A stretch of 64,000 nucleotides of DNA from Rosa chinensis (lineage: Eukaryota > Streptophyta > Magnoliopsida > Rosales > Rosaceae), in contig NC_037093.1 in NCBI RefSeq assembly GCF_002994745.2, forward strand, positions 8,916,400-8,980,399, in the 5' to 3' direction. Position numbers and translations under genes: made by a program. Positions within the stretch are counted from its first letter, which is position 1, and each line of letters starts with the position of its first letter. Below are positions 40,654 through 63,521 of the stretch, piece by piece. The notes under the pieces were generated by a model that was given only the letters and a program-made list of their open reading frames with translations, did not search any database and was not told the origin of the DNA.

Positions 40654-43215
40654 ATGAATGCCAGCAGGTTGCAATGGGCATCTTCCTCGCCTGCGCTGAG
40701 CACAGGGCTCGAAACGTCGTCGTCTTGTTCGAAGCTGGGTTTTGTGAACTTTCGCGGCGGCGGCGGTTGTGGAGATAGCTTGAAGACGAAGAAGGGTTTG
40801 TTTGTGATAAAGGCGATGGATGTGGAGGGTTCGAGAACCGTGAATTTGAATGGGCACGCTGGGGATTCAGGTAGTTTTTGAATTCTGCGGTTTTATTTTT
40901 TTTTTCTTTCTTTATTTGAATTTGGGTTTTGTAAAGTTTTGAATTTTAATTGATGGAATAGATAAAAATGGGAGCTTGTTGTCTTCGATTGGAAATTCGA
41001 CCAACATTCAGTGGCACCAGTGCTCGGTGAAGAAAGAAGATAGGGAAAATATGCTGAAACAAAAAGGGTGTGTTATATGGATCACTGGGCTTAGTGGATC
41101 AGGTTAGTTTCTTGATTAAATTTTTTAAAAGTTTCACGATCCATATAGATGAGGAGCATGTTAATTGGAGGAGAAGCGAAATCGTGTAAATAAGTGGATT
41201 TTGATATGCTATATGCTATCAAAACTGTGAATTTAGGATGATATAATCCATTGATTACCTGCTAATTATGTGTGTTGCAAATGTTGTTTGATAGGGAAGA
41301 GCACTGTGGCTTGTGCTTTGAGTGGGATCTTGTACCGCAGGGGAAAGCTGGCTTATGTTCTAGATGGGGACAATGTCAGGCATGGCTTGAATCGTGACCT
41401 TGGTTTTAAAGCAGAAGACCGTGCAGAGAACATAAGGAGGATTGGTATGTGTAATGTGTCATTGTATACCCTCTTTTTTCCGTTAATATTTAGTAACTTA
41501 GGAAAGCATCTGGCTTTGATTTTATTCAGGGGAGGTGGCAAAGCTGTTTGCCGATGCTGGAGTCATTTGTATTGCTAGCTTGATTTCTCCGTATAGAAGG
41601 GATCGTGATGCCTGTCGTGCATTATTGCCTGCTGGAGAGTTTATTGAGGTTGGTTAGTTGGTGCTTTAACTGCGAAACTTTGTCCATATATCTAATGTAT
41701 TTGCTGAAATATAAAATTACTAATAGAAGCACTTGTGTTATAGGTGTTCATGGACATTCCACTCCATGTTTGTGAGGCCAGAGACCCCAAGGGACTATAT
41801 AAGCTTGCACGTGCAGGGAAGATCAAAGGTACTAAAATGGGCTTTGTATATTAATCTTTAACCACCTGCTTGGATGGTACTACTGCTACAACAATCTTTT
41901 CTTTTCTAATTCTTTCTGTGAGATCCAAGCAGCATCTTGTTAATGAATATATTACCTATGTTTAAAATCATTTTGCAACATTCTTAACTTTTTGTTATTG
42001 TTGTCTGGAGCTCTGTAGATGTGGGTGTTTGGAACTTCTTCATTTGTTCTTTGACATGCATATTTCTTGAAGTTAGAAAATTTAGAAATATCATTATGGA
42101 TCCTTGACTGTGTCTCTGATTATTCATTAGTCATCACTGATTTATATCTTGGACAATTTTAAGTTGAAAACTATAGGACTATTGATATGTAATATGTGCT
42201 GAGGGAAAGTCTTGCGTGCTGGTAAGGTTTTCTCCATTATGCTGGAAATTTTACCATTTCAAAATATGCAATAGCAAGCATTGATAAGGATATGTACATA
42301 CAATCAGTGTGTTGCACTGAAGTACTGTTTTTATATATTGTAATCCATTTGTTATATACTGCAAAGTGCAAATCCTGGTCTCTACCTTTTGTTGACGTAA
42401 TGTTAGAGACATTGCTATATTTTCTGTCACTTAGACATACTTTTGTGGATCCTATGTGGAACCCCCTCCTTCTGCATCTTCCTCCAGATTTATATTCTTT
42501 TACTTGAAGTTTAGTTCAAAATGGGCTATTCCTTATGTTCTGTCTATCTGAAACTGCAGGTTTCACTGGGATTGATGATCCATATGAGTCGCCACTAAAT
42601 TGTGAGGTATGTTTTATTTTGAGAAAAATAGAATAGATTTGCACAAGTGGACACCTACAGGGCAATGGCCCTCTGATAGTCTTGTGATGTTACAGCAAGG
42701 AGCCAAGGATTTGCAGCAAAATTGCAGCTTCTTTTTTTTTTCTTTTTTCTTTTTTCCTCAGAAGTCCAATTCGCACTTCTGCATGCAAACCAAAATGCTG
42801 GACATTTTGTATACAATATTTAGGCTTTGCATGATTTAGATATGAAGCATTTATATTATTCACTTTAAATTGCATGCAAGCATCATTTCAACTGCATTTG
42901 TATGACAAGTCTCTGTAGGAATATGGTGCAGAATGGACTGAAACATTAATGTATACGGTATGTTTGGGTGACATGTCAGATATAACCATGAACATTAGTT
43001 TTGGGCCTCCTATACTGTAGTAAACTATAATATGCTATGGTTGATATCTGTGTTGTATTTATGATATGAAAGGACAATCTTTCTGATGTCAATTTGTCTC
43101 CTTATTCTTTTGATAGATAGCATTAAGGCATACAGGAGGAGAATGTGCGTCCCCATGCGAGATGGCCGAAGAAGTGATTTCTTACTTAGAAGAGAAGGGG
43201 TTCCTCCAGGCTTAA
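40654..43215 (+). CDS. APK: Adenylylsulfate (APS) kinase, plastid type, seven exons, intact
   Basis: Phosphorylates APS with ATP to PAPS, the sulfate donor for sulfotransferases. Exons by eye: 40654-40870, 40962-41102, 41295-41444, 41530-41648, 41744-41828, 42560-42606 and 43117-43215. All have GT-AG borders and matching phases, and the sum is 858 nt (285 residues). A Ser-rich N-terminus ([18 protein letters not shown]) fits a plastid transit peptide, as in the main plant isoforms. The Walker A GLSGSGKS is at residues 115-122; [15 protein letters not shown] begins at 143; [16 protein letters not shown] holds the active-site serine; [16 protein letters not shown] and a C-terminus [11 protein letters not shown] follow. 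No stops or frame breaks were seen. An overlapping upstream ATG lies at 40647. Very sure of function; the exact start is fairly sure. Confidence 0.95.
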
Positions 43216-43560: not shown

Positions 43561-43966
43561 GTTTGTAGATCTTTTCTGGCACCTTTTTACGTCCATGTTT
43601 GCGAATCATTCCATACAGTTTATGCTAACTCTTGCAAACATTGTTTAATTGAGTGGTCAATCACTTTCATGTCTTGCTCTTAAGTTCCTTACTTCCATTA
43701 TTCTTCTTCCACCAAGTAGCCAACTACTGTAGTGTGTATAGCAAATTAGCAATGGAAAAATTCCAAACCCTTCCGTTCTTAAATTCCTTCTCCTGATTCT
43801 ATTAATGTTATTTGGAACTATGTTGTGGATATTAGAATGGCAATTTCGTCAGTAACAAGTATTTCTTATTTCACAATACCGAGTAGCTCTTATATGAATA
43901 TATCTTCTTGAATTGCTGGGCAAAAAACTTGATTAAACAAAAGAAAAGAGAAAAGAAGTAAGAATC

Positions 43967-44119
43967 AAAACAGAGGTATTTTAGAATACCTCATTTATCT
44001 TTGCATTTTCATTCCAGCCTTTGCCTTTGGAGAAATAGAGATCATGGTGCCAATCTAAGGTTGGACCTGATGGACATTGTGAGTATAACTCAAAGCCAAT
44101 AGGTTACCAAGGGACTGGT
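43967..44119 (-). ncRNA. tRNA-like / hairpin module, copy 1
   Basis: Minus-strand head 44119-44048 starts ACCAGTCCC and ends GATTGGCA; closing stem CCAGTC/GATTGG, including one G.U. Arm TGAG/CTCA. After a 55-nt spacer follows the perfect hairpin GAGGTATT-CTAA-AATACCTC (43992-43973), then CTGTTTTG. This is the most diverged head, but its stem is kept by changes on both sides. Confidence 0.6.
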
Positions 44120-44801
44120 GATGGTTTACCTCTGTGTGAATATATATAATGTCCTGAAGTTCTGTCCAACTCCAGTTGTATCAGTTATGTTTGAATCAGT
44201 ATAGCCTGTGCATATGATGCAAGATTCATCCCACTTCAAGTACAAGTTGAATGCAGGAGGTTATTAGGAAGTCGAATCTCGATCCATTAATGTGTAAATG
44301 TGTGATGTGTTTGTTTCAAGTCGAGCACTTGCCGTTTTTATTTTCTTAGTGGAGCTTGAACTGTTAAAATAGCGTTGGATTTTGTTGAGTGACCGACATT
44401 AAATGTAACGTGTTATTTAGTGGTGTTCTCTCACTAATACTAAAGTCATACATTGACGAATAATCTAATCATGTTTGAGGTTAAATTTTTTATTTTTTAT
44501 TTTTTTATTTTTTTAATTCGACCAAGCGAGTGAAATTTATTTAATGAAAAGAATGTTACAAAGAGAACGGAGGTAGGACAGGCATAAGAAAAAAAAAGTA
44601 TTATTTCAATCCAAATTTGATGGGTCTTCCGAACAAGCATAGGTAAAATAAAATGTAGCCTATTAGTTGGAGAAGCGTTTTACTAATGAGCTGGTCTACT
44701 TGATAACCAACTGGCAATGGGAGATGAGGAGCAGAAGCAAATTATTGAATTTTGTTATGCTTTAAAAGCACCAAAGAAGAAAAGAAGAAGCAAAACAAAA
44801 C

Positions 44802-44860
44802 AAAACAGAGGTATTTTAGAATACCTCATCAATATAGATCATACTGTGATTCTCTGCTTG

Positions 44861-44893
<33 letters not shown>

Positions 44894-44962
44894 GCCAGTT
44901 GAACTAGTGACCAGATGACTTTGAGAGCTAATCAAAGCCACCAAGCCACATGGGGACCGGCG
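44802..44962 (-). ncRNA. tRNA-like / hairpin module, copy 2
   Basis: Minus-strand head begins CGCCGGTCCCCATG, A-box-like TGGCTTGGTGG, arm CTTTGA...TCAAAG, B-box-like TAGTTCAACTGG, closing stem GCCGGT/ACTGGC. The spacer contains a (CT)n run. Perfect 3' hairpin (44827-44808) and TTTTGTTTTGTTTT. Confidence 0.7.
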
Positions 44963-45363
44963 ACAGGGTCTACGTATACTAGATATTATAGCGTCAAGAA
45001 AAGCTGGATTTCACATATAAGCAAAGCCACCAGGCCAACATGGGAAAGGTTTGGGAACTACTTATAACTTCCAGACTACAAGTACACAAAAACGTATTTC
45101 ATTCCCAAAAATGTGTAAAGCAAATGTTAGTTAATAAGGGAGAGGTTTCTAAACCCTTTCATTGTTAAATTCATTTTTCTACTTCGTTCGATGATATTTG
45201 GAACCGTGTGGTAGAATGAGAATTTCTTGGTAAAGAGGGTTTCATCTTACATTCGTTGTCTCCGTACCAGTTGTAAGAAGAATTGGTAATGCAAGAGAAA
45301 CTTGGACAAACCCGAAAGGTAACAAGCATAGGTTATAAAAGATTAGAGTAAAAAACGCATGAC

Positions 45364-45481
45364 AAAACAGAGGTACTAAGTGCATGCAATGCAGGCTTCT
45401 CTTTGTCTCTCTGCGAGTTGAACCAGTGACCTGATGAACTTAAGAGATACTCAAAGCCACCAAGCCACATGGTGACCGGCA
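45364..45481 (-). ncRNA. tRNA-like / hairpin module, copy 3 (3' hairpin broken)
   Basis: Head TGCCGGTCACCATG, A-box-like TGGCTTGGTGG and the best B-box of the set, GGTTCAACTCG. Only half of the 3' hairpin is kept (forward gaggta then ctaagtgc), so this copy has lost that stem. The TTTT run is present. Confidence 0.6.
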
Positions 45482-45885
45482 ACAAGTCCAACAACAATAT
45501 CAGGTGATATTGTTATAGGCTGTCTGAGAACCAAAATGCAAAAAAATATTTTATGAAGCCTAAACCAACAGACAGAAAAATTGTCTCTCCAGTGCGTTGT
45601 ATTCAATCAAATATTTAGACTGGAACCATTCTTTGGTTTAGGCTGGTATGTCGGATTGCTGCATACAAAGTTCGTTCTCTGATGAAGAAGCAAACCTGAG
45701 ATTAAGCATTCCTCTGGGGAACAGTATAAGACTTGTTTGCTTACATCTGCTGGCCGTAGTGGAACGAAATAAATTACAACATTCTAATAAATATTAAAGG
45801 CGAAAATCAAAGCAGCTCGACTTTATCAAGCACAATCCATTCTTGAATCTTGACGAATACGAAGCTGCTAATGTCCGGGTCAGCC

Positions 45886-46053
45886 TAAATCTCAGTGTGA
45901 ACAGAAATCTCAGTGTCTAAACCTGGGGAATGAAACAAGGTATCTTAAGGAGGCTAGGGTAAAAAACACTAAATCTCAGTGTGAACAGAAATCTCTGTGT
46001 CTAAACCTGGGGAATGAAACAAGGTATCTTAAGGAGGCTAGGGTAAAAAACAG
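45886..46053. repeat. 84-bp tandem duplication abutting array copy 4
   Basis: Units 45886-45969 and 45970-46053, both starting taaatctcagtgtgaacaga and ending ctagggtaaaaaaca, differ at very few positions. Confidence 0.9.
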
Positions 46054-46193
46054 AGGTATTTTAGAATACCTCATTAGCTAATTTCTGTTGTTGTTTTGTT
46101 TTGGTTCTTGTTGTTTGGTGATGCCAGTCGATCCTTGGACCTAGTAGTCTTCACAAATAAAGCAAAGGCCACCAGGCCAAGAAGGGACCAGCA
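46047..46193 (-). ncRNA. tRNA-like / hairpin module, copy 4 (subtype II)
   Basis: Head TGCTGGTCCCTTCTTGG, A-box-like TGGCCTGGTGG, B-box-like GGATCGACTGG. The closing stem TGCTGGTC/GACTGGCA pairs over all 8 positions with G.U. Perfect 3' hairpin (46072-46053). Together with copies 6 and 9 it shares GGTCC(A/C)AAGATCG-type T-arm sequence. Confidence 0.7.
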
Positions 46194-46334
46194 ATAACAC
46201 TAGTCTAATTTATTTACTTATCATTCACAACTACAAGCACGCAGGGAAAAAAAAAAGTGCACAGAAATGTAAATGGGAATTTGTAAACCTTATTTGCAAT
46301 ATGGCAGACACATTTATTTTATTTTATTTTTTTA

Positions 46335-48493
46335 TGACAAAAAGAAAAAACAGAACGAAACCTACAACAAGAAACTCCTAGTTATTCCAGCTGATCCAAG
46401 TGCAACGCTAGGGACACAGAAAAAGAGAGGCAATTATGCCACACTGCAACATTTCAATTTCTTAGATTATAGTTTGCTAGTTTATCGGCAACAAGGTTTA
46501 CCACCGAACATAAGCATAGGAAGAAGCTATTTTCTGAATTTTTGTGATCAAAGATCTGATTCTCCATGGAACTGCAGTTCTCCTCAAAAGACAATCGATC
46601 AAAAGTTTAGAGTCACCTTCCACAAATACTCTTTGATAGTTGTAAAATTAAGCCGCATGGAGAGCATATCTCGAAGTTGTAGCCTCAGTAACTAAAACAA
46701 AAACTTCTCCGATCTTTTTTGAAGCAGCTGAATCTCTGAACACAAAACCTATAGAACCATGTCCCTGTCTAACAGAGCCATCAAAATTGATCTTAATTGT
46801 ATTAGTATCAGGAGGATTCCATTTAATGTGGAAATGTTTGAAAACTTTGGAATTACACGATTTAGCGTTAGCCTTACAGTAGTTCACTCCTAACATAGCA
46901 ATCCCATAAAAGGTTTGACTTAGGGAAGGAGTTAATTGCTGAAAGATTACCATATTTCTCGAGCTCCAAATAGATAAGGTAATAATAGCTTCATCGTTTA
47001 TACTAGGATTTTGAAACAGAGAAGAAATCCAAGCTAAAAAAGAACTAGAATAAGCTGTAGGAATAGGCGAAGAAGACATTGCCAAATTCCAAACTGAATG
47101 AGCAAATTCACATTGCATAAGCAGACAATCTAAAGACTGAGAGGAAAGAAAAACCTAAAGAAAAACCTTTTCTCTCAAAACCTTCCCGTTAAAAATGTAT
47201 GCCCGGTCCGACGGCACGCCCTTGCGGCGGCGTCGTCGGACGGGCTAGAGTGGACCTTGTGTCAGGTTGTTGGTAGCGTTGTAGCCGGCCTAGTAGGAGT
47301 GTAGGCGGCATGGTGTTGGCTTCGCAGTCTAGTTTGCGTGGTGCCCTTGTCAGTAATGGGAATTGGTGGTTAGGTGGAATTCCGGCAACGCTGGTGTCAC
47401 TCCATCTCGGTTCAGAGCAGGGTCGATTGGAGACTAGGCCGTCTGGTGGGATCGAAGGTGTGGAAGCGAGATCGGGTTCTGAGATCTCCAAATTGGGTCG
47501 GAGCTTTCTGAATCGGGTTGGTTGTTATGGTGACGATCTGTGGAGGAGAGTGACTGGGTCAGATGGCTGTTTCCGATTTGTGTGCTGCGGCCGGTGGTGG
47601 GCTTTTTCCGATCTCGGTGCTGCGGCCGGTGGTGGGAGGACAAGAGCGCAGCGCAGAGTGGCTGGGTCAGACAGATTTTTCCTATTTGGGTGCCGCTGCT
47701 TGTGGTGGGAGTTTTCTGATCTGGTGTTGCGGCCGGTGGTGGGAGGACAAGAGAGCAACGTAGATGGACGTGGTGCTGCACCTACTACCTTTCTTGGATT
47801 GGGCTTGGTGAAAGTTGGGCCTGGGCTGTGCCCCTTGTCCCATTTTATTTTTATGTTTTGTTTTATTTTACTTAATTATAGTAAGAAGTGGCTCTATGCC
47901 AGTAATAAGTCCCTACCTTTTTTGGGTAGGGTGATGTGGGATTTGTCCCGGTATGCACACTCGGTGTGCCTTGTTTGCCCTAGCGGGGGCAACGAACTGT
48001 TTGTTTGGTCAAATGGTTGCAACCTCCTAGTGGCAGGATGAAACGACGTATCGCCAGATTTGTTTCCGTGCGGCAACATAGTGGGAAAGTTGTATTATTT
48101 GTAATGATTCTTTTTCGTGATATAGTTATCTTTCCGGTATGTCACCGCTTTGTCAAAGCATATAGAGTAGCCAATCGTGCACTCTTTGCTAATTGGTGCT
48201 TGCTAGAATACATAGATTTTGTGGAGACTTCTGGTATTATTTCAAGATGTTCTTCCGATGTTTATTGTAATTTGGGGTTTAGGCTCTATGTCCCCCCCCC
48301 CTTTGTATTCTGCAGTTTCATTAATCAAGGCTTGAGGGCAGCCGCACTAGCCCCCTTAAAAAAAAAAAACAGACGATCTATATTTTCAATGCCAGTTAGG
48401 CAAAAAGGATAATACGAAGGTATTCAATCTGTTTCTAATGAGCATCCAAGCAAAAATTTTAATTTTTGGAGGCATTCTTTAGAGACGGTATCA
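46335..48493 (-). mobile_element. LINE (L1-type) 3' part, split by a younger LINE
   Basis: The minus strand encodes a zinc-finger-RVT segment PPKIKIFAWMLIRNRLNT (about 48460-48400), then, beyond the nested insertion, CEFAHSVWNLAMSS and WSSRNMVIFQQ (47118-46950), then an RNase H-like INFDGSVRQGHGSIGFVFRD (about 46800-46740), ending in frame loss. T-rich DNA at 46313-46336 is the complement of its poly(A) tail. This arrangement is typical of plant L1 elements. It is 5'-truncated and decayed. Confidence 0.8.
47135..48369 (+). mobile_element. Younger, 5'-truncated LINE or LINE-mobilised sequence nested in the older LINE
   Basis: Ends in tcattaatcaaggcttgagg, gcagccgcactag, then a 12-A tail (48359-48369 region), a typical plant L1 3' end. 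A 13-bp imperfect target duplication flanks it: cagacaatctaaa (47122-47134) and cagacgatctata (48370-48382). Removing it reconnects the zinc-finger-RVT frame of the older LINE. The body contains GGCCGGTGGTGGG-type repeats (47570-47760) and no recognisable RT. Confidence 0.7.
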
Positions 48494-48502
48494 TTTTATT
48501 AA

Positions 48503-49972
48503 GGGTCCTTGACCCATAGCACCAAAATGAGATAAATTTAGCCCACTTACACCACTAAGAGATTTTTATTCCCACTAACCCAATTTAACAGTTAAATGAC
48601 GATTTTGGGTTCTATCAAGTTAAAATTTACAAATTGCCACTCACTTGCTCTCTCTCCTCCCTCTCTCTGTGCCGACTTCTTCTTCTTCTCTCTCTCTCTC
48701 TCTGCCGGCGCCAACTCCTTCTTCTCTCTCCTTCCTGGGGCCGACCTCTTCTTCTCTTTACTTTTCCGGCGCCGACCTCTTCTTCTCTCTCCTTTCCAGT
48801 GTCGATCTCTTCTTCTCTCTCTCTCCTCCCTCTCTCTGCCAGCGCCCAATTTCTTCTTCTCTCTCTCTTTAGGGTATTGCAGGCGGAGGAGATGGTGAGG
48901 AGAGCCTGGCGACGAGGGCGAAGAACTTAATGGTGTGTTCGACAACGAGGATCTAGCTTGGTCATGCCAACGGTGTAGTAGAGCTGGTTGTTGTGGGGAC
49001 GGCGGTGGTCTGGGCCTTCAGCTTTACTGTCGCTAGTGTAGTTGCTCGTGCTGGTCTGGCCTTCGTTGTTGCTCGTGCTGGTGTCGCCAGAGGAGTTGAA
49101 TTGGAGGAAGAGTGCGTCATAGTGTTGGATCGGAATCAGAATCATTGTCCTGGTTTTTTGGCAATTCCTTGTTGTTATTTATTATATATATATATATATA
49201 TTATTTTGAGAAGAGGAATTGCATCTGTTTGAATATAGTTTTAGCTAATATAAAACTCATTCAACATTATTGCTGACTAATAATATTATGTGGAAAAGAA
49301 TAGGAAGTAATAAAGGTCTGTTGGGGGTAATAGAAGTCTGTTAAATGTCTATTGGAGGGCAATAAATGTTTTGAATTGATTTAATTTTCTCGTGTTTTTT
49401 CTTAATCAAAGTTTTATTTGTCTAATTTTAGAGAGATTAGTTCTCGTTCTGACAACCGAAAAGTCTATTGGGGGGGGGGGGGGGCAATAAAACTCTCCGA
49501 CCCCATATAAGATCTCCGACAACCTCTTTGGAGACTTTCAGGAAGGTTTCATAAACTTCTATTGCCCTCCAATAGAGGTCTATTGGGGAGTAATAGAGGT
49601 TTATTGTCCCTTTATTGGGGGGCAATAAAGGTCTATTGGGGGTGATATAGGTCTATTTGGGAGCAATAAACATTTCCAGCGACCTATGAGATCTCTGACG
49701 ACCTCTTTGGGGAGCGGCCAGTGACCTGATTTTGGCGAAAGTTGGCCGGAATCCGGCAGCCGGTGATGAGACTCCAACGAAGTCTCTTCTCTCTCTCTCT
49801 CATTGTAACAAAAAGGTGAGGGTAAAATAGTCTAAAAAATAAACTAAAAAAAAAAGTTTTAATTGAGTATTAAGGAATACCTCCTTAGAGTGTTTTGAGT
49901 AAAAGAAAATTAAAAAAAATAATAGGGTAGTGGGAAAGAGATTCCTAGAATTAAGGTAAATGGATAAAACCC
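48503..49972. mobile_element. MULE-type element (1.47 kb)
   Basis: A perfect 9-bp target duplication ttttattaa (48494-48502 and 49973-49981). Ends GGGTCCTTGACCCATA and, inverted from the right, GGGTTTTATCCATTTA, so the inverted repeats are short. It contains pyrimidine-rich ttcttctctctc-type repeats (48645-48870), a C+G-rich coding-like stretch (48890-49130, unidentified), and an array of gtctattggggggcaataaa-like motifs (49310-49690) with a 14-G run. Confidence 0.75.
49310..49690. repeat. gtctattgggggcaataaa motif array
   Basis: At least eight variants of (ggt)ctattgggg(g)(g)caata(aa/ga), spaced 15-40 bp, some in tandem (49570-49670). One copy has expanded to a run of about 14 G (49471-49484). 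Confidence 0.8.
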
Positions 49973-49981
49973 TTTTATTAA

Positions 49982-50380
49982 TAATCCCAACATGGTAACA
50001 CATAATGATTCGCCATATATATAAAGTTGCTAGAAAAAAGCCGTTATTTTAACAAATTTACATTTACAACTGCCATTAAGCTTTGACTAAAAAAGAACCT
50101 ACCCAGAATGAAAAAACTGAATTCGTGCTGATCTGCAATAGCTCTTTCATATAATAGAGTTTGTAACCTAGATCTCTATCATAAAAAAGATCATACGAAA
50201 CGCGGAGCAGCAACAGAAATCGGGAGTCCCCAAACGTAGCTATAACATATATGGACAAGAAAGGCATGGATGTGAAGAGTAAGATTCCGATTGCGGCAGG
50301 AGGTAGCAGCAGGTTAAAGGAGATGCCCAGCCTATACATGTGTTTCTAGGTAAAGAAGACCGATAAATCGACACGAAAGG
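49982..50380. other. No recognisable gene
   Basis: AT-rich flank. A hydrophobic minus-strand frame (50339-50076) has no family signature, and I leave it uncalled. Confidence 0.4.
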
Positions 50381-52232
50381 ATGGTTCAATCCATCAATTT
50401 GAGCCATCTTATTACTTGTTCTTCTTCAATTTCATCCAGTTCATCCTACCCTAACCCTAAACCTAAGCTGGAAACATTACTATGGCAAGTGGTTTACACC
50501 GGCCCGGATCTTAAACTCCCATATAAACCAGGCTGCAGTGGCGGCGGCTGGTACTTCTCGGAGGACCTTTGGAGTCTGGAAGGCATTCAAGTTTCTAAAG
50601 AGATTTTTGAGTTTTAGACCGATGCAAGTCTGGATCTGAACCCCAAACTCAAGAGAACGGGGAAATTCTAAACCATGATGATGATTCTGCCGGATGGTAA
50701 ACTCTATGCTTTAAGATTCCCCCATAAAGGCCCTAAGACCAAAAGCTGGTGTACATACCGGCTTTTTAGGTATTCGACTTTACCGAGCAAACATGGTCAT
50801 GACCTCTGCCGCAGCCTCCATTTGATGAGCTTAAAAATTGGCCGTGATTTTTCGATATCTTTCATGCAACTGTGGAGACCACCATCCTTATATCCACTTC
50901 GAATACCTGCACACACCACTTTGATGCAGCCTATCCTTCAAGAGGCTGGACAAAACAATCCGATACACCCTGTCCGTGCTCCCTTGGCAGAGCTTTAGTG
51001 TTGAAAAACCATGACCACTGCGACAACTACATTTTGTTTGGTTATGAAGCCTGTGATGATGCCAGTGACTAGATCCGCAATTTAACCATAGGAGTCCATC
51101 TTATGTCCAAAAATGACTATTCTTGGACACATATTGCATCTCTCCTTGTTCTTCCTCCTGAATTTCAAGTTCAGTTGCCTCCTGAATTTCTTCCAGTAGA
51201 CAAGTACAGTGTTGTCCATCTTGGAGGTCGAATCATATGCTTTGTTCTCAGCAAATTTATGATATTAACACAAGATTGTGGTTCTTAGGATTCTATCTAT
51301 ACATATATGGACAAGATGAGTAGTGCTGTAGTGACATTTGAATATTGTCTATCGCCGGACTCCAAGACCATGGATTTCAAGATCCTGGGTTTTCGCTTAC
51401 TTGAATTTGATACCAATCGATATGGCCGGAGATCTCGAAAGCGTGTCAGGCTGTATGCTTGGTGCCTTGGTGGGGGATCCGATACAAGATGGCAATACTT
51501 TTACAGATTATAGAATGAAATCCCCAAAAGCAAGCAAGGGCATTACCCTAGAACCAGGAGAGTTACTACCCAATTCTCTTTTTGGAAGGGCAACTGCCTC
51601 TCTCGTTGCAACGATGGCAAATGTGGGTTGTATTCCAAACCACTCCTCCCTGGTTCCTGTTGCTGCCTCTCAGCAAAATCCTGTCCCATCTTGTTCATTT
51701 GGGCCCGATAGGATTCTCCCCTACACTAATTTCATAAATGGCAATGGGGCAACATGTATCAATATTCACAACAGTATGCTGGTCACTATCCTATTCTGGC
51801 TGGACCTGGCAGTATGTAGGGGTCATCATGGGCCGGGCTAGGGCCGGCCCTACCCTAAATTTTAGGGCTTAGGGTAGGGCCGCGCGGGGCCTAGTCAAAG
51901 TCAACAAAATTTACGGCCAGATAGGGTCGGGCCGGGGCTTAAATAAGCTAACCCTTACCTGCCCGAAAGAGCTGAGCCACTAGGGCCGAAAGGGCCGGCC
52001 TTCCTAATAGGGCCAAATAGGGCCGAAATTGACCTAAAAATGTCTTAATTTGTTTAACAAAAAGAAATATATTACTTTTATTTTTTATCTCAAAATGTGG
52101 CTCAATGGTTATATATGTAATATAAGACTCATTATTTTTTGTTGATCATATTTAATATAAATATATATATTGGAATTAACTTATAAGTTATAACATTTAT
52201 AAATATTAGTTAAGATGGTTATATTCAATCAA

Positions 52233-52419
52233 GGGGAAATTACTGGTCACACCCTATACTTTAGATGCGTCGACAGTTTAGTCCATAACATCTTAATTTT
52301 AACAGATAACTGCCCAGACATTCAAATTTCACACAATTTGGTCTAAAATGACCATTTTACCCCTCACTTTTTAAATTTTTTTTTTCTTTGGTTATTTTTT
52401 CTGCTTCTCTCTCACTCTG

Positions 52420-52488
<69 letters not shown>

Positions 52489-53716
52489 CAACCATCTTAC
52501 CAAGATGCATTTCGACATGCTCATGATACCCATCAACGAGTGTCGTAGAAAGATCGACGGGTCCAGTAGAGGATTCTCCACCGCCTGGTCAACTGGAGTA
52601 AAGGCGGTCAACGAACTCGGAGGGTTCTTGAACCCCATGAGCTGCAGATCAAGAAACGAAACCATCAACAACACATATCTTATTAACCACCCTAGAAAAA
52701 ACCCCAAAAACTCAAAGCATTTCTCCCACAATGAGTTAAAAATCCAATGAACCAGTGATCAAATTACATCAATATCACAAGCAAACGTCATCAAATCTGC
52801 ATACTAACAGACAAGATCAAACCAAAATAGAACAGAAAACCAAACAAGCACATTCAGAATCAGGCGAAAACAATCTAATCAGGCCTTAAACAGATGCAAT
52901 TGAACCAGTGAAAAAAAAAGGGTAATTTAACAAGAATTTACCGCAATACGATCACGGGGGTGATTGTACCGACACCTCGAGCCGCACCCACAAATCCTAG
53001 TCTTGAGATAGTAACTACAATCGGCCTCCTCGGGCAGTTCCGGGTACGATTTTCAGGGTTCGAAACCCGATCGTACTTGTACCGTTCGACGAAGCGACCC
53101 GGACATCGGATCCGCGATCAGAATTCTGGTCGAGGCGGGAGCATAGAAACTCGGGTCGAATAAGTCCTCGACTCCGAAAATGATAAGGAACTAGTCGTCG
53201 TAGATAGGTGAGGTGGCGGTTGTGACCCTGACGCCGTTGAGCGAGAGTCTGCAGCCAGAAGGCGGTGAGGTGACGACGAAAGAGCTGCCGGAGGGGAGTG
53301 TCTGGATCTTGGTGCCGGTGGGGAGGGATTTTAGGGTTTGGAGGGGTAGAGCGAGAGGGGCGAAGTGGAATTGGAGGAGAGAGAGGGAGGGCTGGCCGGC
53401 TCTGATCTAGGGAGGAGTGGCGTGTCTTTGCCGGAACAGGGGGACTGATGGAGGATGGAATGGTCGGATCGAGCTTCCACGGCGTCAAGTTGGCGGCGGG
53501 ATGACTGGGGAGGCTCAGTGAGTTGGCGAGAGAAGAGACAGAGTGAGAGAGAAGCAGAAAAAAGAACAAAAAAAAAAGGAAGTGAGGGGTAAAATGGTCA
53601 TTTTGGATCAAATTGTGTGAAATTTGAATGTCTGGAGAGTTATCTGTTAAAATTAAGATGTTATTGACTAAACTGTCGACGCACCCAAAGTATAGGGTGT
53701 GACCAGTAATTTCCGC
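52233..53716. mobile_element. Pack-MULE (1.48 kb) carrying a fasciclin-like gene fragment, nested in the hAT-like element
   Basis: Inverted repeats of about 140 bp (left ggaaattactggtcacaccc, then tttagtccataacatcttaa; right the complement). The 9-bp target duplication ttcaatcaa / ttcaattaa (52224-52232 and 53717-53725) has one mismatch. A (CT)n run occupies 52421-52485. Two blocks of the same captured gene lie inside (see separate entry). Confidence 0.85.
52490..53340 (-). pseudogene. Captured fasciclin-like (FAS1) arabinogalactan protein fragment
   Basis: The minus strand 53330-53120 reads PTGTKIQTLPSGSSFVVTSP, SGCRLSLNGVRVTTATSPIY, a stop, then FLIIFGVEDLFDPSFYAPAS. Further on (52640-52530) it reads PSSLTAFTPVDQAVENPLLD. 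These resemble FAS1 domain segments of plant cell-surface adhesion proteins. Intron-like DNA separates them. The in-frame stop and truncation mean no product. Confidence 0.6.
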
Positions 53717-54363
53717 TTCAATTAACTATCTCTCTAAATCTTCCAAAATTAATTGTTGTTTAACAAAGGAAACAAAAATTAAAGAAAATAAAGCTAGGAA
53801 ATCAATTACAAAAAATAGATAAGTTGTATGTTATAGACTAAAGAGAAACATATTTAAAAAATAGAAAAAAATAGAAAATTATTAGGGCTTAAAGGGTCGG
53901 GCCGGGCTTGGCCCTAACAGGCTCAAACGGGTAGGACCGTAGGGTAGGGCCGAGTTTCATTTGCATGACCCTTACCCTACCCTATTTGAGAAAGGGTAAG
54001 GCCGACCCGCCCTAATGCAAGAGTCGGGTAGGGCGGGTTTAGGGCTGAAGGGCTAAATGATGAGGCCTAGCAATATGTATCCAAATACTCATGCTATGGT
54101 TGGACATATGCAAAGCCGGGTACCAAACCTTCTTCAGGCTAGAGCACTGGGCTAATGAATATCCAGATTCTCAAGCTATGGCTGGACACAGAGAAAGCAG
54201 GGTACCAAAACTTCTTCAGGCTGGAACGGGATATGTTTATCAAGCTGAGGGTACTTATTACTGAGGATGACATTATGACTATGATTCGTCAACGTCAACT
54301 GATGTCTATTGTGAAGAACCTGGCTTCCTATCGACCTTGCTTATTTCTTTGTGTGATGCACTA

Positions 54364-55315
54364 GCGGGCTAGTTAGTTTTGTGTGATACAGTATGCAACA
54401 TTATTGTATGACATTCTAATATACATGCTTTTCCTTTTTATAATTCAAGTTTATAAATAAATAAATTAAAAAAAAAAAAAAAACTATAAACCAAGGAAGG
54501 AACAAAATCTTATCACAATCCAGCAACAACTCTGGATCCGTCTAGACCCATCCGTCTACAGTCTAGACCCATCTTTCCAAGTCCCCACTTGGGAGTTGAA
54601 CTCTCGATTCTATGCTAGTGGCCTCCAGTTTAGTCCCTTCTTCACAATACAAATCAATGAGGGAGACCCATAGTAGATAAGTAAAGAACATAGTCGAAAA
54701 GCAACAATATGAAAATACTAGATCCGTTAGTTAACTTTGCATTTACGCTGTAAGGAATTTAAGAGAATATAAAGACAATATGCTTTTTAGTTTCATTTCC
54801 CATTTACAAACCCATTCTTTGATGTCACTTAAGTACATTGGATAAACTCTTGGAATGCTATGCCTCCAGGTTAAAGGGAAGAGAAGGGTGTGGTTTGCAA
54901 AAATAGGGTGACAATTTCACCCCCCCCCTTCCCTCCCCCGAAAAAATAAAACAATCGAGGTTTGATCGATTTCTCTAAGAAAAGAAAAAAATTACTACTG
55001 TCGTAACTCGCAAGACCTATAGCTAGTTTGCTTACATCTGTTGGCCCTAGTGGAAAGAAAGAAATTGCAACCTTCTACATAGTGGGGAAAACCAAAGCAT
55101 GCTGACTCTATCAAGCATGATTCATTCTAGACGAATGCGAAGCTGCTGATGTCAGGACAAACGTAAAAAATGCAACAGGGTATCTCATGAAATAGGTAGA
55201 TTCATATTGAAAGAGAATGAAGAGAAAAATTTTGAAGGACAACATAGCTTGCAACCTTTCTTTTTGGTTACATAGCTTGCAACCTTTCTAATAAAAAATA
55301 AAGAAGAGGCAAAAC
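54364..55315. other. Flank with segment duplicated from 45.7-46.0 kb
   Basis: 55020-55200 matches 45740-45960 (ttgcttacatctg, gaagctgctgatgtc). A long A-run lies at 54469-54483. No gene seen. Confidence 0.6.
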
Positions 55316-55483
55316 AAAACAGAGGTACTTTAGAATACCTCATCAGTATATGCGCGGTTGATTTGCACGCTTAAGTACTCAAAGCAGAGTCCCTATCTAT
55401 CTCTCCATCTGTATGCCAGTCGAACGAGTGACCTGATGGATTTGAGAGATACTCAAAGCCACCGAGCCACACGGAGACCAGCA
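55316..55483 (-). ncRNA. tRNA-like / hairpin module, copy 5
   Basis: Head TGCTGGTCTCCGTG, A-box-like TGGCTCGGTGG, arm TTTGAGTATCTCTCAAA (6-bp stem), B-box-like CGTTCGACTGG, closing stem TGCTGGTC/GACTGGCA. The 3' hairpin GAGGTATT/AGTACCTC has one mismatch. TTTTGTTTT follows. Confidence 0.7.
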
Positions 55484-55551
55484 ACAATATCATGAAGTAA
55501 AACTACTATATCAGAACTGACAGGAAACTTAGCAAAGCCAAAAGAGTAGGT

Positions 55552-55713
55552 AAAACAGGGGTCTTTTAGAATACCTCATTAGCCAGCTGCTGCTGTTGTT
55601 TTGGTTTGGTTCTTGTTGTTTTGCGATGCCGGTGAGCCGGTCGATCCTTGGACCTAGTAGTCTCCAGTCTCCACGAACAAAGCAAAGGCCACCAGGCCAA
55701 GAAGGGACCGGCA
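55552..55713 (-). ncRNA. tRNA-like / hairpin module, copy 6 (subtype II)
   Basis: Head TGCCGGTCCCTTCTTGG, A-box-like TGGCCTGGTGG, B-box-like GGATCGACCGG. The closing stem GCCGGTC/GACCGGC is fully Watson-Crick: the 3' side has changed from GACTGGC. The 3' hairpin is slightly altered (AAGACCCC side). A short insertion follows the stem. Confidence 0.7.
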
Positions 55714-55873
55714 ATCATTCGTGTGTAAAGCTACAAGTACATAGAAATGTATTTCTTCCCTAAAATCTTAAAGCTTATTTGCAATATATATAGCAGACAG
55801 TATTACTGACCCAAAATCACACCACATCTATTTGCTTGAGAGCTAGAAAGCAAAAAGAGAATAAAGAATGAAC

Positions 55874-56006
55874 AAAACAGAGGTATTTTAGAATACCTCA
55901 TAATATTATGTTCCTTTTTTCCTTTTCTTCTTCCTCTGCCAGTCGAACTTGCAACCAGCTGGAATTTGAGGGTTTCTCAAAACCAACAGGCCGCATAGTG
56001 ACCAGC
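55874..56006 (-). ncRNA. tRNA-like / hairpin module, copy 7
   Basis: Head GCTGGTCACTATG, A-box-like CGGCCTGTTGG, arm TTTGAG/CTCAAA, B-box-like AGTTCGACTGG, closing stem GCTGGTC/GACTGGC with two G.U pairs. Perfect 3' hairpin and TTTTG. Confidence 0.7.
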
Positions 56007-56566
56007 GAAATGTTTAACCGTGTTTTAAGTTATAACCAAACATAGGGAAGACACCAAGTAGTAAACGTCATTTCAAGATCTATTTTCATATATGTGAGTT
56101 TCGTTGTAGCATTTATAATTTTATATCAATCAATGTAAATTCATGCAACCATCATTTCGAATTTTCGACCAATTTCTGTAATATGTTTGATAAACTTGTA
56201 GAAATATGGTAGATATATAATCGAATGAAAGATGGGGTTATACATGTATAATTAGGTGGCACGAATGTATAACCACGTTTATGTTAACATTAATTTTGCG
56301 CTTCCTATACTCAGGAAATCACTGGTAATTAACATATAGTTCTGGATGAATATCAAGAGCGCAGAAGTGAAAGACGTAGTCAAAATGAATAGGAGGTTTG
56401 CAGCTTATTCGGTGAGAGAGTTGAATAACAGATTGGTCTCAAATCTCAAGTCATTTTGCGTGTATACCTTGCCACGGGACTTGTAAGGATTTTTCTTACT
56501 AGGTTTCATTTATGGAAAATGGAGGATGCTATGTCTATCCTCACTGAGTAAGGTGGCCGCATCACA

Positions 56567-56698
56567 AAAAACAAAGGTATTTTAGAATACCTCATCATTA
56601 TAATGGATATCACTGTTTCTTTCCAGTGCCAGTCGAGCTGGTGTACTGATGGCTTGAGAGAACCACTCAAAGCCACCAAGCCACCGAGGGACAGGCGC
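56567..56698 (-). ncRNA. tRNA-like / hairpin module, copy 8
   Basis: Head GCGCCTGTCCCTCGG, A-box-like TGGCTTGGTGG, arm CTTTGAG...CTCAAG, B-box-like GCTCGACTGG. Perfect 3' hairpin (GAGGTATT-CTAA-AATACCTT with the last pair changed) and T-run. Confidence 0.65.
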
Positions 56699-56739
56699 TA
56701 AAACCTCTTCAGTCAGTATATATTAGAATATATTGAAGG

Positions 56740-57023
56740 AAGCCGGGTCTGTTCTTTGATTGATCTTTTATAAAAGAAAGAGGTACAAGTAGTGGTTCTG
56801 TACGTGCAGAATAAGGTTGATACTTGATACTCCTTGGCGCATTAAATCGTTGATGGCTGATATTAAAGCGTTAGCTGCTTACTTTTCCTATACATGCTTC
56901 AAACATGTGTACCGTGAGGCTAACTTTGTTGCCGATAGATTGACCGTTTTTGATTTGCAGAATAAGTTTTCTGTAACTTGCAAAACTGTCTTCCCCTTTC
57001 ACTGTCTCAAGCGTTCCTTTTGA
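56740..57023 (+). pseudogene. LINE-type RNase H C-terminal fragment
   Basis: The plus frame DTPWRIKSLMADIKALAAYF then CFKHVYREANFVADRLTVFD, the end of the plant retroelement-type RNase H (HVYREAN..AD motif). It is not linked to other LINE domains here and is short of the catalytic N-terminus. Confidence 0.75.
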
Positions 57024-57137
57024 ATCACCTAGGTGGGGGTGTAGCTAGAGATTTCTCCTTGTAGTTTAGTTGTGTTGTTTGTTTTGGTTCATAAATTTTT
57101 TATTTTAGTGCAAATGCAACTAGTTCAAAAGAGAAAT

Positions 57138-57298
57138 AAAACAGAGGTATTTTGAAATACCTCATTTGGTAATAGATAGAGCTAGCTAGCTAGTCTATGA
57201 CTCGTTGTTGTTTTCTGTTGCTGTTGATGCTAGTCGATCTTGGGACCTCGCAGACTGAGCAATTAAAGCAAAGCCAACAGACCACCAAGTGACCGGCA
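57138..57298 (-). ncRNA. tRNA-like / hairpin module, copy 9 (subtype II)
   Basis: Head TGCCGGTCACTTGG, A-box-like TGGTCTGTTGG, B-box-like AGATCGACTAG, closing stem TGCCGGTC/GACTAGCA with one mismatch. The 3' hairpin reads GAGGTATTTCAAAATACCTC, with a changed loop but intact stem. TTTT follows. Confidence 0.65.
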
Positions 57299-57992
57299 CA
57301 AGATCTTGCCTTACATAACAACTTGTATCAGAAGTGAATACACGTTTGAATGAAAATCTTACATTTGGTACTTTTATTAACCAAAAAATATAAAAAATAA
57401 AAATTAAGACTTATTCAAAATTCAGTAGTATATATATTTGGATTTATTCACACAACAATCCATCGGAAATCAGCATTACGGTGGATCGTTGAACTAGAAC
57501 CAGTACTTCGTACTCGTGTAAGTGTAGTAGGGATCACACATAAACCGACCCATGCAAAGCCATAAACTTGAAGAGTGGGAGGAAGAGCAACGTACGTCTT
57601 GCTTGGTGCATGGATTGCGTATGTAGTAATGCATGGTGGGCATCAGAATATTATGCGCAGCACAAAACTAATTCTACGCATAGTGCTTGTTTTAATCCTA
57701 CTGTAGTAGTAGTAGAAGCAGTAAAAGTAGTCTAGTACCACATGGACCAAGACTAAAACCTCTTACTGATGATCTTTCATCGAGACAGACCATCTTCATC
57801 GATCGATAGACGAAGACGATCGACTGTCTCTAATACTTGAAGCATCATCAACAGGTCTCATGGTGGCAGGCAGCTGCCCAAACTCAACTTAGATATACAC
57901 TAGCTTCAATAAGTAAATGACACAGAGGTACTTTTTTTTTTTTTTTGAGATGAACACAGAGGTACTTCATGCATATACAAAAAAAAAAAAAA

Positions 57993-58218
57993 ATCCTTCT
58001 CTCATTTGCTGTTTAAAACTCATTTACTCTTATGCAGCATAAAAATTAGTGACACAGCATAAAAAAAGGCTCGTAATTCTTGGCAGGACCGCTGGAGGGT
58101 ATCCTACTATCCTTCTCTCATTTGCTGTTTAAAACTCATTTACTCTTATGCAGCATAAAAATTAGTGATACAGCATAAAAATAGGCTCGTAATTCTTGGC
58201 AGGACCGCTGGAGGGTAT
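57993..58218. repeat. 116-bp tandem duplication upstream of array copy 10
   Basis: Units start at 57993 and 58109 (atccttctctcatttgctgt), nearly identical, each ending accgctggagggtat. Confidence 0.92.
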
Positions 58219-58231
58219 AAAAGCACAAAAC

Positions 58232-58356
58232 AAAACAGAGGTATTTTATAATACCTCATTATCATAAATTAATCCCATTCTGCTTATGCCAGTCGAACTT
58301 GTGACTAGATGGGTTTTGAGAACAACTCAAGGCCACCAAGCCACATAGCGACGGCG
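58232..58356 (-). ncRNA. tRNA-like / hairpin module, copy 10
   Basis: Head TCGCCGTCGCTATG, A-box-like TGGCTTGGTGG, arm CTTGAGTTGTTCTCAAA, B-box-like AGTTCGACTGG. The closing stem is weaker (GCC/GGC plus mismatches). The 3' hairpin GAGGTATT-ATAA-AATACCTC is intact with a changed loop, and TTTTGTTTTG follows. Confidence 0.65.
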
Positions 58357-58559
58357 AAGCAAATCTGCAAAATCTATACTATCAACCTGGAGTAATAATA
58401 TGACATCTAACTTTGTACAGATAGATTCAATCAAAGCTACAGGTGTTTTATTTGTTTATTTTCAAAGGACTTGAGAATAAGTACGTATGATAGAAATGGA
58501 CTAATGGCTGAACAAGGCCTCGCATTGTAAAAGTCTTTCGGGATTAGACCCTTTTGCAC

Positions 58560-61761: not shown

Positions 61762-63509
61762 GTACTCCTCCCCACTTACTATGTGTTTGTGGGTGAGTTG
61801 AGCAAAGAGCATGGGATGCTCAAGAGCCTGGGAGGCTCCCTTACTCGTATGGTGATAACTTCTTCCCCATACTCTACTGTTACTTGACTAGCGGGGCTAG
61901 TCAGATTTTGTTTAACCAACGGAGTTGGTCTTATTTTCTTGAGCATCGAAGTTTCAGTCTTTTTACTTGGTTGTTTGTGACTAGTGGGGCTAATCAGTTT
62001 TCTTGAGTTGAACATCATTCGAATTATTTTCCTTAATTGTTGCATGCATCGGGTTTGTAAAGGAATAAACGTGGGAAAGTATAAAATTCATTTTTAAAAG
62101 AATAGAAATCAACGTATTTATTAGTAAGGAAGAAATACTTGCAGTCCTCAAAAGATCCTTACTGGTGACATGCATTATTGGAAAGCGGTTAGAATCCGAA
62201 GACGTGCTAGCTCTCCCCTGTAGGATGCTTCTCTCTTTAGTTTCCCTCCCAACTTCCCGACGAAGTTCGAATAGACACAACACACAACAAAAGATTCAAG
62301 AGTGCCACAATTTCATTTAGCAAAATCGGACTTAGGACGTAGTTCCATACAGTAATCATTTCAATCCACAACCAACATTTCCAAAACACAATAGCAACCC
62401 ACCAGATGTCACAATTCAACAATTTCCAACATCAATCACATTCCCACATATTCAAGTTGTCGTTCACATACCTTGCTCCTTTTATTTTTACCTCATACTG
62501 GGCTCACAACTTTACTGTGGTTTGTGCACTGTGGAGGAGCTTTGGGTGGCAATACTCGTTCAAATTCAAAGAACAAATAATAGCATACACAATAATTTGA
62601 CTGGAGCAAACTTAGAAAACAAAAGGCAACCATGGGTAATGTTTCAACGAACATGATTCACTGAACAACACAACAATTAGATACACACGGTTTCAATCAA
62701 TCCAACACAGCGTATGAACACCTAATAGTTGGACTTGAAAAGATGATGAGACAAATCACAACAATCGAGTCTACATAAGCAATCAAATAAACTAGACTCG
62801 ACAAAATACCCAAGAAGAAATAATTACCAAGTCCAACACCAATAGCAATGAGCACAGTTTTAACGAACCGGATTCACTGGACAAGGCGATGGATCGGTAA
62901 GTGAATCCAACAATAGCTCAACATTCAAAAGGAATAGAAAATCAAGCAAACACAAGTTCAATTGCTATGACAAATCCTTTCAGAAAAAAAAAATAACGAT
63001 TGTCGGATTAAGGAATCCAAAGGGAAAAACAAACAATAGTTCCAACTAACAACAAGTCAAAGTTCCAAAGGATAACTCTAGAGTAATTTATTTGTCGCCA
63101 GTTGTATTCAGTAATTAACAACTTTCAACCTCGGTACACATTAGGGGGATCCGGTGGCCAGTCGGGCCCTAAACCGAGTGAAGTGTTGTACTTATCTGAA
63201 CACACACTAGCAACAATCCTTTTTCACAACTCGACTTTCAACGCGCTTTCGCTTTTAGCACCCCCTTTTTTTTCCGAAAACTTCCTCGCACGTTCTCAAA
63301 ACTCGGTCTTAAAAACCGAAGTCAAACCTTTTTCGAACATCAGGTAGAAATTATAACAACCTTTACAGTCAAAGGTTCAGAAACACGTTCTTGAACAACC
63401 AATCGTCGAGTCGACTTTCAAAAGGTTTTGAAAATTTTCACAAGCTAACAAAAACTTTTTCTGGTATCAGAGGTTGTAAATTGTGGGAAATCGAAAACCC
63501 GGAACCATT
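61762..63509 (-). mobile_element. Untranslated 5' internal region of an LTR retrotransposon (minus strand)
   Basis: No gag or pol motif is visible. The region reads away from the primer binding site at 63510-63521, so it is the leader of an element whose 5' LTR is at 63527. The coding part is absent before the Tourist MITE, so the element is probably a truncated or non-coding derivative. The left boundary is unknown. Confidence 0.45.
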
Positions 63510-63521
63510 GCTCTGATACCA
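63510..63521 (-). other. Primer binding site (initiator Met-tRNA type)
   Basis: The minus strand TGGTATCAGAGC is the standard plant retrotransposon site complementary to initiator tRNA-Met, five bases from the LTR. Confidence 0.85.

Follow-up and report, generated by a model that had tools for sequence, protein, structure and literature searches.

The rodent BC1 RNA is described as a Pol III transcript made of a 5' stem-loop, an A-rich middle part and a 3' stem-loop, and its gene as the source of the rodent ID elements (PMC4923876). Two further rodent RNAs, 4.5SI and 4.5SH, are likewise described as SINE-related, with a type 2 promoter and a TATA-like box at -31/-24, and their genes are grouped, three 4.5SI genes lying close together and 4.5SH in tandem repeats (PMC10137851). 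For 4.5SI RNA the complementary ends are reported to prolong its life (PMC3440375). In plants, tRNA-derived SINEs are short, carry boxes A and B and show target-site duplications at dispersed copies. In Vault RNA and Y RNA, both Pol III products, the two ends pair into a stem. To our knowledge no stable Pol III source gene for SINEs has been found in a plant.

The initial annotation of the 64-kb window (the whole stretch of Rosa chinensis DNA that was analysed) had proposed ten tRNA-like modules on the minus strand near the APS kinase gene, and none elsewhere in the window. Ten modules of 123-173 bp were indeed found on the minus strand between 43963 and 58357, together with one fragment:

43963-44121, minus strand: module m1, 3' hairpin at 43973-43992
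44798-44963, minus strand: module m2, 3' hairpin at 44808-44827; best match, at only 79% identity, of the retrocopy C2:59734343
45003-45045, minus strand: fragment of the 5' half of a module (nhmmer E 0.0012)
45360-45482, minus strand: module m3, 5' arm of the 3' hairpin gone
46043-46194, minus strand: module m4, 3' hairpin at 46053-46072; 16 of the 22 retrocopies match it best
46121-46194, minus strand: 5' domain of m4, predicted as a single long hairpin containing boxes A and B (E -39.0, z -7.8)
55312-55484, minus strand: module m5, 3' hairpin at 55322-55341
55548-55714, minus strand: module m6, 3' hairpin at 55558-55577 with two mismatches
55870-56008, minus strand: module m7, 3' hairpin at 55880-55899
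56564-56698, minus strand: module m8, 3' hairpin at 56574-56593
57134-57299, minus strand: module m9, 3' hairpin at 57144-57163; the dispersed copy C4:19877921 matches it best (91%)
58228-58357, minus strand: module m10, 3' hairpin at 58238-58257

The models used in the window were trained on these same ten modules, so that their match to them is by construction. A model-free search with the 23-nt 3' block (up to three mismatches) gave nine matches in the window, all on the minus strand and all within the array, and none in 100 shuffles; the tenth module is m3, which is probably decaying. No minus-strand match was found elsewhere in the window, and the 15 other model matches (E up to 1) are weak and on the plus strand, 13 of them overlapping modules. 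The A-box string (up to two mismatches) occurs 34 times in the window with 13.9 expected, and the B-box string alone is weak (18 matches with 11.1 expected; 5 of 100 shuffles reach 18). The 3' flanks had also been regarded as shared. The string quoted for them is complete only at m2 and nearly complete at m5, and the 60-nt downstream flanks, compared for nine of the ten array modules (m3 dropped), give 0.583 versus 0.567 when shuffled, a similarity at the shuffled level; common 3' flanks do not characterise the family.

The modules follow one plan: a 5' domain of about 72 nt with boxes A and B, a variable linker, a nearly invariant 3' hairpin, and then TGTTTT. The boxes were scored against the consensus given in PMC10137851, with shuffle control and with the position of box A constrained. 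At type 2 spacing, the mean summed score in 28 domains was 17.4 of 22, compared with a mean of 14.7 and a maximum of 15.4 in 300 shuffles. Every one of the 28 domains scored at least 15, at spacings of 26-38 nt, and half of them (14) at least 18, versus 1.2% of shuffled domains; the matches to box B are imperfect (7-10 of 11). In a type 2 Pol III gene box A lies near the start and box B some 30-40 nt from it, and the arrangement in the modules corresponds to this. In addition, 14 of 27 distinct modules have an upstream TATA starting between -34 and -20 (500 shuffles: mean 2.6, maximum 8), an interval fixed only after the 5'-domain fold results had been seen; in the other 13 upstream regions a literal TATA is absent at this distance.

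For counting loci in the genome the longer pattern of hairpin and TGTTTT was used, because the pattern without TGTTTT is its own reverse complement, also matches an unrelated GAGGTATTAGGGAATACCTC repeat and is therefore a poor counter. The longer pattern occurs at 41 places, 29 of them on C6. Genome-wide, about 46 loci were found on six contigs, many in one-strand clusters; divergent modules that lack the conserved hairpin may be missed. About eight loci have no clear 5' domain, and the broken loci comprise m3 and hairpins on C1, C2 and C7 without a clear 5' domain. At C4:22680291 a hairpin without terminator was seen. Open frames beside the modules, read by eye in 22 loci, included SINA-like ligase frames at three loci only, so that no general protein-gene partner was found.

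Target-site duplications, which flank full SINE elements, were detected at none of 32 modules tested of the roughly 46 loci (longest chance match 11 nt), and the modules are not dispersed in many copies on both strands as SINEs are but cluster on one strand. The exact B-box string occurs at 57 places in the genome versus 119 for the reversed control, and m2 with short flanks as query gave 25 matches; on these counts a high-copy SINE was rejected. Among the 32 modules, 15 have their closest relative in a different cluster, and in only 11 do the upstream flanks match those of the closest relative (0.73 or more). The arrays are therefore not simple tandem copies but old and mixed, and duplication at the DNA level is seen for some pairs. 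The earlier proposal of a Pol III gene multiplied by local duplication agrees with the one-strand clusters, the lack of target-site duplications and the few genome-wide copies. The family is not confined to the APS kinase locus, however, and a local-only cluster is contradicted by the loci on six contigs. The modules thus look like a Pol III-type gene family that has grown at least partly by DNA duplication, not like a high-copy SINE.

Dispersed copies on both strands with target-site duplications had been named as the sign of a SINE, and such copies do exist, but as truncated retrocopies of these genes. The set comprises 22 dispersed copies; the C6:22183176 query also gave short matches to GATGAT-type repeats (C3, C4, C5 and C7), which were not included. 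They carry 5' sequence only, and none has kept the 3' hairpin. Fifteen start at module position 1-3 and 19 end within the linker. Target-site duplications were found in 14, three of which (L073, L076 and L085) beat the best shuffle by only 1-2 nt; the remaining eight, C4:19877921 among them, have no clear duplication. The copies best match five modules, chiefly m4, and those of m4 type lie on both strands and are few, 13 of 16 places being outside modules. Short retrocopies lacking the 3' part are the offspring of a BC1-type source gene as well. Because the modules tested lack target-site duplications, while most of the truncated copies have them and the copies match five modules, the modules look, from their sequence features, like Pol III RNA genes that are transcribed and give rise to SINE-like retrocopies.

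It is unlikely that the modules are instead ordinary tRNA-derived SINE copies, clustered by segmental duplication and now decaying, with no selection beyond past transposition. The tRNA-like A and B boxes, the both-strand dispersed copies of the 5' domain with their target-site duplications and the broken loci would fit such copies. However, the modules themselves have no target-site duplications (0/32), the retrocopies have no 3' hairpin (0/22), the TATA in 14 of 27 modules lies outside any SINE body, and genome-wide copies are few for the types searched. Compared with tRNA-derived plant SINEs, the modules share boxes A and B, the short length and the duplications at dispersed copies, and differ in lacking duplications of their own, in the frequent upstream TATA, in the 3' terminator hairpin and in the one-strand clusters.

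The pattern of conservation also speaks against mere SINE decay. Median identity among modules is 0.667 in the 5' domain and 0.897 in the 3' hairpin block, whereas the linker (0.474) and the flanks (0.58/0.57) are at the shuffled level. All 31 rows of 5' domains are predicted to fold, at lowest energy, as a single hairpin and not as a cloverleaf, and the fold z is below -2 in 24 of 31, with seven failing this limit. The initial annotation had likened the closing stem to a tRNA acceptor; a stem is present, but box B extends into it, and the predicted fold of the domain is a single long hairpin. An array of tRNAs can be rejected, as the window has no tRNA genes (bacterial code), the predicted folds are single hairpins and there is no cloverleaf with anticodon. 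In the test for paired changes 84.1% of cells are paired, versus 35-46% with slid partners and 79.5% with shuffled letters, and 50 cells with double changes compare with 22.6 in shuffles, none of 500 reaching 50. With an alignment made from sequence only, 77.9% of cells are paired, versus 28-50% for slid partners and 73.9% (maximum 76.9%) for shuffled letters, with 36 double changes versus 19.0 (maximum 28). On these predicted folds, selection apparently acts on the modules at the RNA level. In the 3' hairpin paired changes are almost absent, and its conservation could therefore act on DNA.

A stable hairpin of about 72 nt, related hairpins in arrays and weak sub-threshold Rfam miRNA matches in the region could also point to precursors of small silencing RNAs (miRNA or siRNA) made from the 5' stem. 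We consider this highly improbable: no Rfam match reaches the gathering score, an internal Pol III-type promoter and a terminator are present, and conservation extends to the 3' hairpin rather than being confined to one 21-nt arm. A known Rfam RNA was likewise rejected, since Rfam 15 gave only sub-threshold matches in the window; the modules recall Vault RNA and Y RNA in the two-end stem of a Pol III-type RNA but match no Rfam 15 family at gathering score there. Least probable of all is that the 3' palindrome alone matters, as a DNA site for protein binding or recombination, with the remainder hitch-hiking: its near invariance with almost no paired changes, and its presence at several loci on C1, C2 and C7 where no 5' domain can be recognised, would agree with this, but TGTTTT follows it in register with the Pol III boxes and the 5' domain has paired changes of its own.

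Taken as a whole, the best explanation is probably that the array belongs to a rose family of structured small RNA genes, derived from tRNA and transcribed by Pol III, with retrocopies; for the gene-family part alone our confidence is somewhat higher still. Transcription by Pol III is suggested by the promoter anatomy and, indirectly, by the retrocopies. Together with boxes A and B, the TATA-like site near -30 would recruit TFIIIC, TFIIIB and Pol III; from the anatomy, the transcript would begin with the first G of the closing stem and end at TGTTTT. The product would be an RNA of about 100-190 nt, in which an open linker joins an extended 5' stem-loop to a near-invariant 3' hairpin. The genes have multiplied at least in part through DNA duplication, as some pairs show, and transcripts may occasionally be copied by a LINE-type reverse transcriptase priming inside the linker, which would give the observed truncated copies with target-site duplications. 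By analogy with BC1 RNA we tentatively suggest that the RNA acts in trans as a stable RNP, in which the 3' hairpin may be the protein-binding site and the 5' stem a regulatory domain.

The initial annotation knew of no named RNA with this architecture, but the plan is that described for rodent BC1 RNA (PMC4923876), and both the predicted folds and the paired changes agree with its 5' extended stem-loop, open linker and 3' stem-loop. As far as BC1 is described in PMC4923876, PMC1978531 and PMC10137851, the likeness covers the length of about 150 nt, the type 2 Pol III promoter, the tRNA-derived 5' domain as extended stem-loop with an open middle and a short 3' stem-loop, and a gene seeding short retrocopies that consist of the 5' domain and a short tail. 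It is a likeness of plan, and no homology is claimed between rose and rodent. Unlike BC1, with its single active gene, the rose family has about 46 clustered loci, its 3' hairpin is nearly invariant, its linker is not always A-rich, and about 20 retrocopies were found versus a reported estimate of 130,000 ID elements in rat. The modules resemble 4.5SI and 4.5SH in the type 2 promoter, the relation to SINEs and the grouping of genes; those RNAs are 94 and 98 nt long, and the descriptions at hand give them no linker-plus-3'-hairpin plan. Among the matches listed in an open-access literature search, judged by titles and the beginnings of abstracts, there was no report on such a plant RNA family, and by word search the whole word 'SINE' is absent from the main text of a transposable element paper on 14 Rosaceae genomes (PMC11197308).

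It may be, with a chance a little short of even, that the modules encode structured Pol III RNAs with a regulatory role and form a plant multigene family, BC1-like but independent, with both ends under selection and with members that repeatedly and independently found small SINE lineages. BC1, with which the family can be compared as a stable Pol III gene that gives rise to SINEs, belongs to rodents (PMC4923876); the rose family, if true, would be a plant equivalent of a system known chiefly from mammals. It would act as a 'living nursery' for SINEs, where a clear structural difference separates source genes from their offspring, the gene having the 3' hairpin and no target-site duplications and the retrocopy the reverse. 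With several source genes and few, datable retrocopies, such a plant family would open the origin of SINEs to testing, and the modules that are the likely sources, m4 foremost, lend themselves to direct assay. Plant genomes would also gain a class of structured RNA genes that is not yet annotated.

Ten tRNA-like, Pol III-style modules (m1 to m10) had been claimed on the minus strand by the initial annotation, and they proved to be real: two models built from the ten modules themselves, one an HMM and the other a covariance model, place the array at window positions 43963-58357. The conserved 23-nt 3' block (≤3 mismatches) was found nine times in the window, always on the minus strand and inside the array, and not once in 100 shuffles. 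A fragment at 45003-45045 corresponds to the 5' half of a module. The remaining model matches with E ≤1 in the window are 15 weak ones on the plus strand, 13 of which overlap modules. ARAGORN detected no tRNA gene in the window and no Rfam 15 family reached its gathering score there; a permissive Rfam scan of 43900-58500 gave sub-threshold matches only.

The surroundings of the array contain three further features. An open frame on the plus strand at 41255-41575, which reads by eye as part of an APS kinase, lies tail to tail with the array. Between the array halves, at 52224-53725, we found a roughly 1.5-kb element whose 166-nt inverted ends are 89% complementary; it resembles a non-autonomous Mutator-type element. 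Near 63500-63521 the minus strand carries TGGTATCAGAGC, which resembles an LTR retrotransposon primer-binding site.

A typical module consists of a 5' domain of about 72 nt, a linker, 22-79 nt long in 28 modules, and a 3' end formed by the hairpin GAGGTATT-N4-AATACCTC followed by TGTTTT. Boxes A and B were scored in 28 domains with the consensus given in PMC10137851; at type 2 spacing the summed score is 15-20 of 22 with a mean of 17.4, compared to a mean of 14.7 and a maximum of 15.4 in 300 shuffles. A TATA starts at -34 to -20 in 14 of 27 distinct modules (500 dinucleotide shuffles: mean 2.6, maximum 8); the interval was set post hoc but agrees with the -30/-24 position given for plant tRNA genes (PMC10137851). 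The lowest-energy fold of the 5' domain is a single long hairpin in all 31 rows, one row being a partial module and another a repeat of the same module, and z is below -2 in 24 of them. The inner stems have box A as their 5' arm, and box B extends into the closing stem, so that the 5' domain is not a cloverleaf.

When 30 distinct rows are aligned to the model, 84.1% of the cells are paired, compared to 35-46% with the partners slid and 79.5% with the letters shuffled, and in 50 cells both partners have changed (22.6 expected from shuffling; none of 500 shuffles reached 50). Since such an alignment favours structure, the count was redone on a sequence-only alignment of 26 domains, of which 25 were counted, excluding the reference. 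Here 77.9% of the cells are paired (28-50% slid, 73.9% shuffled) and 36 double changes face a shuffled mean of 19.0 and a maximum of 28. The paired changes thus support, rather than prove, selection on RNA structure, as kin sequences may beat such shuffles without any structure.

Across 200 pairs sampled from 28 modules, the 5' domain has a median pairwise identity of 0.667 (shuffled 0.577), the 3' block of 0.897 (0.586), the linker of 0.474 (0.456) and the 60-nt flanks of 0.583/0.567 (0.567/0.583). Duplicates and rows in which no hairpin start could be recognised, m3 included, had been left out, which somewhat favours the hairpin figure. By these identities both module ends have been kept while the intervening linker has become saturated; recent duplication alone would be insufficient as the cause. 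Gene conversion could also have kept the ends alike.

The window spans C6:8916400-8980399 of the 515-Mb, 53-contig Rosa chinensis assembly. Across this assembly the hairpin with terminator (≤2 mismatches) gave 44 rows, or 41 distinct places after removal of three rows in which the same palindrome had been read again in reverse, and none in the reversed control. Contig C6 holds 29 of the 41. At least five more modules have no matching hairpin (m3, C6:2872510, 8127804, 8128473 and 8884864), giving about 46 loci as a lower bound. About eight of these have no clear 5' domain (C1 four, C2 three, C7 one), and a few further C6 loci are partial modules. The hairpins on C1 resemble a copy of m9-m8 that has been relocated and broken. 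A look-alike palindrome, GAGGTATTAGGGAATACCTC, occurs in an unrelated repeat at C2:43351406, C2:45509802, C4:36096332 and other places, which are absent from the genome-wide list of hairpins with a TGTTTT terminator. Among the modules found the clusters are one-stranded:

Clusters of modules in the assembly
C6:8.960-9.061 Mb, minus strand, 14 of 14 modules
C6:7.997-8.149 Mb, plus strand, 13 of 13 modules
C6:2.87 Mb, plus strand, 3 of 3 modules
C6:8.884 Mb, plus strand, 2 of 2 modules
C3, plus strand, 3 of 3 modules

Judged by their similar upstream flanks some module pairs are DNA duplicates, namely C6:8111147/8129811 (modules 95%, upstream 98% alike) and the C3 modules. The identical modules C3:22276694 and C3:22277394 (locus L059) lie 700 bp apart with upstream flanks 99% alike, which reads as a very recent tandem duplication. 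Upstream flanks are common to a module and its nearest relative (≥0.73) in 11 of 32 modules, and for 15 of the 32 the nearest relative sits in a different cluster. At C6:31879500-31879820 (L089) a module 93% like that at C6:22183176 is flanked by long inverted repeats, which suggests capture by a MITE-like element. By eye, frames resembling SINA-type E3 ubiquitin ligases adjoin modules at C6:7.997 Mb (L039, matching SINA-like 10 of Fragaria vesca) and C6:9.055-9.060 Mb (L052 and L053).

With m4 as BLAST query 21 matches were obtained, four modules and 17 dispersed copies, the latter 78-99% identical and covering only part of the first 111 nt of m4. Together with four copies found by the C6:8142207 module and one m2-like copy, they make up a set of 22 retrocopies. 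Flanking duplications of ≥12 nt, above all 100 shuffles, accompany 14 of the 22, although at three loci (L073, L076 and L085) they exceed the shuffles by only 1-2 nt. None of 32 modules has such duplications in a near-identical test (40 shuffles; longest chance match 11 nt). No 3' hairpin lies within 150 nt of any retrocopy: the closest matches have 5-8 mismatches of 16, against 6-8 in the reversed control. Fifteen retrocopies start at module position 1-3, which likely marks the transcription start. The 3' ends of 19 fall in the linker and those of three before it, the C6:8.140 module missing a few 5' bases in this comparison. Among 31 modules the best match is m4 for 16 copies, the C6:8.140 module for three, and m2, m9 and the C6:8.129 module for one each; two of these matches, the one to m2 (79%) and one of those to m4 (78%), are distant, and the m9-like copy lacks a clear duplication. 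A 28-nt m4 string (≤3 mismatches) occurs at only 16 places genome-wide, 13 of them outside modules (nine on one strand, four on the other), so that the word filter does not conceal a large SINE family of the m4 type.

The same m4-type retrocopy lies at the apparent ATG of three paralogous genes, at C6:15679253 (L075), C2:37638440 (L076) and C6:13521682 (L078), where the frame, read by eye, resembles the beginning of a TIR-type resistance gene. At two of them the target-site duplication takes in the ATG, and the start codon is therefore repeated downstream. The three copies appear to be one insertion, which leaves about 20 independent events.

The modules have a promoter-like and terminator-like anatomy and a common predicted fold, occur in clusters and have retrocopies. 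Rodent BC1 RNA is described as a Pol III transcript of about 150 nt, in which an unstructured, A-rich centre separates a 5' stem-loop of tRNA origin from a short 3' stem-loop. Most rodents have a single active BC1 gene, and it is a source gene of the ID SINEs (PMC4923876; PMC1978531). The rose modules share this plan, for which we do not claim homology. A further parallel is 4.5SI RNA, described as having an upstream TATA-like box, three genes 4-40 kb apart (PMC10137851) and stabilising complementary ends (PMC3440375). No plant counterpart was found among the titles and abstract beginnings listed in searches of an open-access library.

We propose that the modules would be transcribed by Pol III in cells feeding the germ line, starting at the closing stem and terminating at TGTTTT, and that reverse transcription would be primed internally in the linker. 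The module RNA itself might act in trans as an RNP with the 3' hairpin as protein site, a function guessed from its likeness to known RNA.
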